This document shows positions 14,856-37,797 of a stretch of 37,797 nucleotides of DNA, one piece after another. The stretch spans positions 1 through 37,797 of the forward strand of contig PHAM01000011.1 in the NCBI GenBank assembly GCA_002841685.1. Direction: 5' to 3'. This DNA comes from Elusimicrobia bacterium HGW-Elusimicrobia-2. GTDB taxonomy: Bacteria > CG03. The position numbers were made by a program, and so were the translations under genes. Numbering within the stretch: position 1 is the stretch's first letter; every line of letters begins with the position of its first letter. A model generated the notes under the pieces. It was given only the letters and a program-made list of their open reading frames with translations, had not been told where the DNA came from and made no database searches.

Positions 14856-15162
14856 GGGGAGATGATTCGGACGGCCGCCCGCTCAGGCGGGAGGAAAGTC
14901 CGGACTTCACAGAGCACGGCATCCGCCGAAAGGCGGAGGTCCGCCGAAAGGCGGATACGGAAAGTGGCACAGAAACCAGGTACGGGCCCGCATAATGCGG
15001 GTGCCGTAGTGAAAAGGCTAAACCCTGCCGGAAGCAAGGCCAAGCAGTCCCGTTGTTTTTCTTCGCGGAAAAACGCAAGCTGCTCGTTTGGAATACGGGA
15101 CGGGTAGGCCGCATAGATGAATGGCCGTTAGAACAGAATCCGGCTTATGGAATCATCTCCCC
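14856..15162 (+). ncRNA. rnpB: RNase P RNA (bacterial)
   Basis: Conserved blocks 'gaggaaagtccggacttcacagagca', 'cagaaacc', 'ggaagcaaggccaa', 'gggtaggccgcatagatgaatggccgttagaacagaatccggcttat'; P1 12-bp helix ggggagatgatt / aatcatctcccc. Confidence 0.95.
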
Positions 15163-15181
15163 CGAGAATAAAGGAGGAAAA

Positions 15182-37447: not shown

Positions 37448-37531
37448 GGACAGGTGGGAGAGCGGTTAAATCCAACAGACTGTAAATCTGTCGTCCATCG
37501 GGCTACGGTGGTTCGAATCCACCCCTGTCCA
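37448..37531 (+). tRNA. tRNA-Tyr (anticodon GUA)
   Basis: GGACAGG/CCTGTCC acceptor, anticodon loop CAGACTGTAAATCTG, long variable arm, T arm GGTGGTTCGAATCCACC. Confidence 0.96.
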
Positions 37532-37549
37532 AGAATGTATGGTCATGGA

Positions 37550-37571
37550 GCGAGCCAACTGCTTGGCTCGC
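37550..37571. repeat. Perfect 9-bp hairpin between tRNA-Tyr and its partial copy
   Basis: GCGAGCCAA-ctgc-TTGGCTCGC. Confidence 0.8.
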
Positions 37572-37573
37572 GT

Positions 37574-37599
37574 GTGGATTCGAATCCACCCCTGTCCAA
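37574..37599 (+). repeat. Partial duplication of the tRNA-Tyr 3' end (T arm and acceptor strand)
   Basis: 21-nt exact direct repeat TTCGAATCCACCCCTGTCCAA at 37512-37532 and 37579-37599; preceded by GTGGA, giving palindrome GTGGATTCGAATCCAC. Confidence 0.85.
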
Positions 37600-37644: not shown

Positions 37645-37715
37645 GCGGGAGTTGCATAGTGGTAGTGCTCCAGCCTTCCAAGCTGGAAGTGTGGGTTCGA
37701 TTCCCATCTCCCGCT
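37645..37715 (+). tRNA. tRNA-Gly (anticodon UCC)
   Basis: GCGGGAG/CTCCCGC acceptor + U; anticodon stem-loop CCAGC-CTTCCAA-GCTGG; T arm GTGGGTTCGATTCCCAT. Confidence 0.95.
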
Positions 37716-37725
37716 TTTATTAAAA

Positions 37726-37797
37726 GGGAATCGAAGCCGACTTGAGCGCGTCCTGTGGACGATAGTGAGCGCAGCGAACGGCAGCGAAAGCGGCCGG
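37726..37797. repeat. Element downstream of tRNA-Gly, truncated by the window edge: inverted T-arm copy plus GC-rich AGCGAA-rich tail
   Basis: GGGAATCGAA (37726-37735) is the exact reverse complement of tRNA-Gly TTCGATTCCC (37696-37705); followed by ...GCAGCGAACGGCAGCGAAAGCGGCCGG. Confidence 0.6.

Follow-up and report, generated by a model that had tools for sequence, protein, structure and literature searches.

The stretch of DNA analysed here (37,797 nucleotides, hereafter the window) is the entire contig C49 of a 1.78-Mb genome (G000). An intact tRNA-Gly(TCC) gene is located on the forward strand at 37645..37715, as detected by ARAGORN and by Rfam RF00005 (68.4 bits). Nucleotides 57-73 of this tRNA (37699-37715) form the left copy of a direct repeat and are followed on the same strand by a spacer, S (TTTATTAAAA, 37716..37725), and by the sequence GGGAATCGAA (37726..37735), which occurs only once in the window. 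The latter is the exact reverse complement of TTCGATTCCC (37696-37705), the T-loop/T-stem sequence of the tRNA-Gly, and lies exactly where the original prediction had placed an inverted T-arm; it provides the 5′ strand of a closing stem, P1. When the 82 bases of the Gly tail were shuffled 200,000 times, an exact 10-mer match arose in 41 cases, and a chance origin of the inverted 10-mer, taken alone, is unlikely; the family-wide permutation test described below is far stronger evidence than this single-case shuffle test. The first 62 nt of a folded core, designated type A, occupy the forward strand from 37736 to the window end (37736..37797), as defined by a 96-base identical overlap with another contig and by homology to the element behind tRNA-Leu(GAG) on contig C60. 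This tail had been described as an AGCGAA-rich repeat. The GC-rich segment is indeed present, but it is more than a simple repeat: it constitutes the 5′ part of the conserved type-A core and is 82-89% alike to the Leu-GAG element. Elsewhere, the window contains a bacterial class A RNase P RNA gene (14859-15163).

C49 terminates within the Gly repeat. Bases 1-96 of contig C58 of the same genome are identical to window positions 37702-37797, and the sequence continues past the window end with the remainder of the Gly-unit core (C58:97-130), a displaced tRNA-Gly 3′ end (C58:131-147), and the spacer and inverted arm (C58:148-167, with the spacer at C58:148-157). A direct copy of the tRNA-Gly 3′ end had been anticipated just past the window, and it is found there: C58:131-167 repeats GATTCCCATCTCCCGCTTTTATTAAAAGGGAATCGAA with 37/37 bases identical, starting at tRNA nt 57 and including the spacer and inverted arm. 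This second copy is 133 bases downstream of the first and 35 bases beyond the window end. The C49-C58 join depends on the 96-base overlap alone plus gene-order support from relatives, the latter because the relatives G001 and G003 keep the Tyr-Gly-Thr-Trp gene order seen across the join.

The window contains a second such arrangement, on the forward strand, behind tRNA-Tyr(GTA) (37448..37531, with nt 57-73 at 37515-37531; ARAGORN, Rfam). The tail of this gene (37532-37598) follows the design of the Gly unit without the core. It comprises a spacer (37532..37548), within which GGTCATGG at 37541 is an imperfect inverted copy of the acceptor, a hairpin, hp2 (AGCGAGCCAACTGCTTGGCTCGCGT, 37549..37573), common to type-B units elsewhere (89% over 36 nt versus a type-B element), and a perfect palindrome (GTGGATTCGAATCCAC, 37574..37589) in which the inverted T-arm is joined directly to the direct copy, the core being absent. 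The displaced copy of tRNA-Tyr nt 57-73 (GAATCCACCCCTGTCCA, 37582..37598) is identical to 37515-37531. The Tyr unit in the window is either a footprint or a core-less unit; Tyr units that possess a core occur in G001 and also in G002, where the unit is cut by a contig end. The proposal that one class of element lies behind the unrelated Tyr and Gly tRNAs is supported, with the insertion point refined to the T-loop, between nt 56 and 57 (56|57).

Across many genomes, the right boundary falls at 56|57 in all 47 complete units, with one ambiguous base, C56; the exception is the core-less Tyr unit, whose edge is hidden by the palindrome. The tRNA is kept complete and the old 3′ end is displaced in 47/47 complete units. 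The units are noncoding and 130-240 nt in length; they begin with nt 57-73 and a spacer, in many cases continue with a partial inverted acceptor and a hairpin, and end with the inverted T-arm and the conserved core. The repeated segment corresponds to nt 57-73 plus mostly 0-3 nt, and 39 of 47 repeats end within 12 nt of the tRNA 3′ end; longer repeats mostly represent tandem or partial second units, or copies that include the spacer. Two tandem units are present at Val-TAC in G003. The simplest reading is that a 130-240-nt unit was inserted exactly at 56|57 and that the original 3′ end was pushed to the right. A variable-length target-site duplication extending through the spacer is weakened because the repeat ends cluster near the tRNA 3′ end, most of them no more than 3 nt past it, and because a loop resembling GAGYGNAGYGAR is, by eye, common to spacers of G061, G063 and G065. 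Two body types are distinguished: type A (Gly, Leu-GAG) has a short spacer, and type B has an extra hairpin, AGCRAGCCAACTGCTTGGCYTGC, ahead of the inverted arm. One extra structured module of ~85 nt is located within both type-A and type-B cores of G006 (L069, L183, L187, L195), which suggests module exchange between units in that genome.

Alignment of 19 type-B cores from Elusimicrobia and Patescibacteria reveals a three-way junction that comprises P1 (inverted arm paired with displaced T-arm), P2 and P3, the closing stem P1 being composed of host T-arm sequence. Double compensatory changes occur at 19 of 39 pairs, with 96.6% of cells paired, and the covariation score of 0.370, compared with 0.147 in shuffles, was not attained in any of 500 shuffles. 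The criterion for a structured RNA, covariation above shuffled controls, is therefore met. The abundant G-U pairs are at least as compatible with RNA as with single-stranded DNA. Rfam searches of six loci (E ≤ 1) returned no family that matches the units, and neither a group I or group II intron nor a known ribozyme, so that the criterion for these classes is not met and a known RNA family was rejected.

The tails of detected tRNAs in G000 were read genome-wide. Unit-like tails are also found behind Leu-GAG, Leu-CAG (a remnant), Val-CAC, Val-GAC, Val-TAC, Ser-CGA, Met-CAT, Ser-GCT (degraded) and tmRNA, and body-sequence searches of the genome yielded strong copies at those tRNA/tmRNA tails only. 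T-arm inverted repeats predicted at other tRNA loci are thus present at several loci in G000, and at tRNA loci in two phyla. Lack of a nearby 3′-end copy, or of T-arm repeats elsewhere, would have refuted the original prediction; both were examined and neither held. Empty and filled states of the same site can be compared among relatives. Ser-TGA is empty in G000 and filled in G003, with an identical right flank (TATCACTCATAATTC); fMet is empty in G000 and filled in G001; Gly-CCC is empty in G000 and G003 and filled in G002. The Gly-TCC unit of G003 is without a core.

Several other arrangements were observed near tRNA genes. A second, unrelated repeated tail, comprising ATTTCGGTGAGCACGGCTCACC and the sequence around it, is present in G000 at L010, L032, L041, L012 and L025 (tails of Ala-CGC, Ala-GGC, Leu-TAA, Pro-TGG and Pro-CGG), and a tail of this type ends the contig in places. 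On the 3′ side of the Met unit of G000 (L026, contig C78), GTGAAAGTCCAATCTGAGGAAAGG at the contig end looks similar to a motif of group II introns or of RNase P and remains unidentified. Locus L208 of G066 (~190-480 on the unit strand) exhibits, after tRNA-Val, a partial tRNA copy that begins in the anticodon loop; it is preceded by a 13-bp hairpin (GTTAAAAAGACAT...ATGTCTTTTTAAC) and followed by a unit, the left portion of which forms a perfect 24-bp palindrome around a CTGC loop. The arrangement may reflect a related event at a different point of the tRNA. At L257 (contig C53 of G065), an intact tRNA-Ser(GCT) is closely preceded by a decayed tRNA-Ser copy that carries a unit, an arrangement reminiscent of the duplication of an entire tRNA gene.

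An exact pattern scan of ~85,000 species genomes matched 14 contigs, the named groups being Elusimicrobia, Parcubacteria and Wolfebacteria; each match examined either follows a tRNA or abuts a contig end that would have removed the tRNA. A covariance model identified units in 6 of the 16 genomes from the phylum of the window, which is Elusimicrobia as judged from named relatives, in 36 of 380 Patescibacteria genomes and in none of 32 other genomes tried. Parcubacteria group bacterium SW_6_46_9 (G065, a member of Patescibacteria) contains 27 matches in 0.6 Mb, a heavy load for a genome of this size. The neighbourhood of 69 matches was inspected: in 54 cases a tRNA/tmRNA 3′ end precedes the match by no more than 200 nt on its own strand. 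Several of the 15 exceptions are truncated at contig ends, lie behind a tmRNA overlooked by the program, or represent second units of a tandem. The model may favour tRNA-like ends because the T-arm stem was included when it was built, its E-values are rough, and many sites come from fragmented metagenome assemblies. Viral contigs contained no exact pattern match, and a viral-contig scan with a window protein was negative; blastn of the units against phages and plasmids was likewise without a match. Cargo of a virus, phage or plasmid was rejected on the strength of the exact-pattern and blastn results. No description of these tRNA-loop units was found in the open-access literature, and the family is widespread and apparently undescribed.

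Taken together, the Gly tail is probably one copy of a non-autonomous, protein-free family of mobile DNA that is specialised on tRNA and tmRNA genes and whose arms are copied from each new host, insertion being carried out by an enzyme acting in trans. The broader proposition, that a mobile nucleic acid in at least two bacterial phyla retargets between tRNA genes without a protein of its own, rewriting its terminal arms from each target at T-loop position 56|57, we hold to be evenly balanced between true and false.

The evidence for arm copying begins with the match between arm and host. The inverted arm agrees with its own tRNA at 8.98 of 10 bases on average, compared with 7.71 in permutations; the maximum of 10,000 permutations was 8.09, and none reached the observed value. 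Thus, the arms do track the host tRNA across tails, a point on which the original prediction had sought an answer. At nt 59, the arm matches its own tRNA in 94% of cases versus 40% for any tRNA. Both this permutation test and the null for tails reject an ordinary chance repeat. Tracking by the inverted acceptor copy is only weak (5.10 of 7 versus 4.55, and within the permuted maximum once G-U pairs are allowed), and a claim of strong acceptor tracking was dropped for weak support. Arm copying is not always perfect or complete, because some arms mismatch their host: the inverted arm of the G000 tmRNA unit keeps ATTCGAA and differs in the loop base, a one-base mismatch that looks like incomplete renewal.

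Part of the tracking could be due to post-insertion selection for pairing. If selection rather than copying were responsible for all of it, mismatched arms would be mended by point mutations because P1 is needed as an RNA or single-stranded DNA fold, an account with which the compensatory pairs in P1 and the wobble-tolerant matches agree. However, at 21 of the 25 positions that distinguish the tRNA from the displaced copy (a few from truncated matches), the inverted arm sides with the working tRNA and not with its P1 partner. The retargeted G006 cores described next are too alike to have allowed time for many independent compensations, and one may infer that a mismatched nt 57-73 segment would break a single-copy tRNA at once. 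Selection without copying is considered unlikely.

In G006, three type-A cores located behind Ala, Gly and Leu tRNAs share 95-97% identity, and each carries the arms of its own tRNA; therefore, copies spread between tRNAs and the arms follow. Similarly, five cores in G065, located behind Leu, tmRNA, Gln, Pro and Thr, group in a single clade with good support. When mapped onto the core tree, the genome label requires 19 changes, versus 23.4 when shuffled, and the tRNA label requires 29. The step from such sequences to movement with arm renewal is an inference, as no transposition has been observed. The core behind fMet in G001 shares 94% identity with the Tyr core of L199; assignment of L199 to Patescibacteria is inferred and not stated in its record. 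This cross-phylum likeness (0.94) indicates horizontal movement and, together with the 0.93 likeness between the Met cores of G000 and G002, could be accommodated by lineages that each keep to one tRNA, pass horizontally between the same tRNA gene of different species and match its arms by descent. The conservation of tRNA 3′ ends between species would favour such an arrangement. Nevertheless, the near-identical G006 cores at three tRNAs, the single G065 clade at five different RNAs, and the larger number of tRNA-label than genome-label changes all oppose it, and tRNA-specific lineages appear quite improbable.

For a mobile family with host-derived arms, a working scheme can be outlined. An enzyme supplied in trans would recognise the T-loop, which is nearly alike in all tRNAs, cut at 56|57 and insert the element in a folded single-stranded or cruciform form. 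Rather than being brought from the old site, the arms would be derived from the new host tRNA by copying during or shortly after insertion, most likely by way of a 17-nt staggered gap or a fold-back (template switch) around the insertion, and later hairpin-directed correction may keep the inverted arm matched to the working tRNA. Template switching that makes and maintains hairpins is documented at the DNA level (PMC8794818, PMC7202029); it could renew the inverted arm but on its own leaves insertion at 56|57 unaccounted for. A restored target with a displaced fragment is an established mark of tRNA-gene insertion (Islander, PMC4383910). The earlier suggestion of one class of element by which the tRNA 3′ end is acquired, or regenerated, on insertion is supported in this respect, except that the regeneration mechanism itself is not shown. 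No enzyme has been linked to the family, and the arm-copying mechanism is inferred. Transposases of the Y1 / IS200 type are common in carriers and non-carriers alike and absent from the carrier G006; hence a Y1/RAYT transposase, an obvious partner, displays no clear association. No gene-bearing (autonomous) unit was encountered among the loci read.

The copying could instead proceed through RNA, an element transcript that is tRNA-like at both ends being reverse transcribed and gaining tRNA sequence by template switching. The left part of the unit resembles a split primer-binding site, and the nt 57-73 segment resembles the retroviral strong-stop copy, which ends near m1A58. Retroplasmids, moreover, acquire tRNA genes (PMC9925561). 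Reverse transcriptase (PF00078) was sought and not found in G000-G006, G065, G061, G064 and G066-G068, and the copied end is without the added CCA in tRNAs that do not encode CCA. A reverse-transcribing route is judged distinctly unlikely because G000-G006 and G065 are without PF00078 and the added CCA is not copied. Very improbable, finally, is a host-useful RNA, an immobile tRNA-processing or termination module retained for its function: the strong fold, the constant orientation downstream of tRNAs and the terminator-like hairpins in some spacers fit it, and the patchy presence at orthologous tRNAs within one genus, the tandem copies, the decay and the cross-phylum near-identity do not.

How the arms would be rewritten is directly testable because the conserved fold yields a covariance model that is usable at once to survey genomes and to seek the enzyme. 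The units may also disturb tRNA annotation and assembly; the window contig itself ends inside one.

Several known systems offer partial parallels. Quasipalindrome correction and template switching (PMC7202029, PMC8794818) form a known DNA-level route by which one arm of an inverted repeat is made to match the other and RNA hairpins are maintained, but such processes would account for the arm matching and not for the insertion at 56|57 or for movement. Retroplasmids and retroviral primer-binding sites share with the units the adoption by a mobile nucleic acid of the sequence of the tRNA it uses. In contrast to these systems, the units are inserted within the tRNA gene, the CCA is not copied, and several carriers lack a reverse transcriptase; availability of this enzyme, the criterion for a retroelement, retrozyme or retroplasmid, is not met in G000-G006 and G065. 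MITEs and REP/RAYT elements are likewise short, noncoding, hairpin-rich, multi-copy and presumably moved in trans. Unlike the element-specific terminal inverted repeats that define MITEs, the inverted repeat of the units is host-derived and varies per site, the arm tracking the host tRNA; insertion is confined to one tRNA position, the repeat is 17 nt and defined by the tRNA, and no matching transposase has been identified. Islands that target tRNA genes carry an integrase and keep to one target, and in integrative elements the copy of the targeted tRNA end is normally fixed. Units that change their copy with each tRNA would embody a principle of retargeting that was not found in the papers searchable. 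A further counterpart is provided by the Islander tRNA/tmRNA islands with tyrosine integrases (PMC4383910), with which the units share the split gene, the restored 3′ end and the displaced fragment; regeneration of the target with displacement of the 3′ fragment is met in 47/47 complete units and by the empty and filled sites. Unlike those islands, the units add an inverted T-arm and a folded core, and at 130-240 nt they have no integrase and are too short for an integrase gene. Their attachment site is not fixed to one tRNA either, as close relatives lie behind many tRNAs and tmRNA, a single family thus carrying a copy that matches each.
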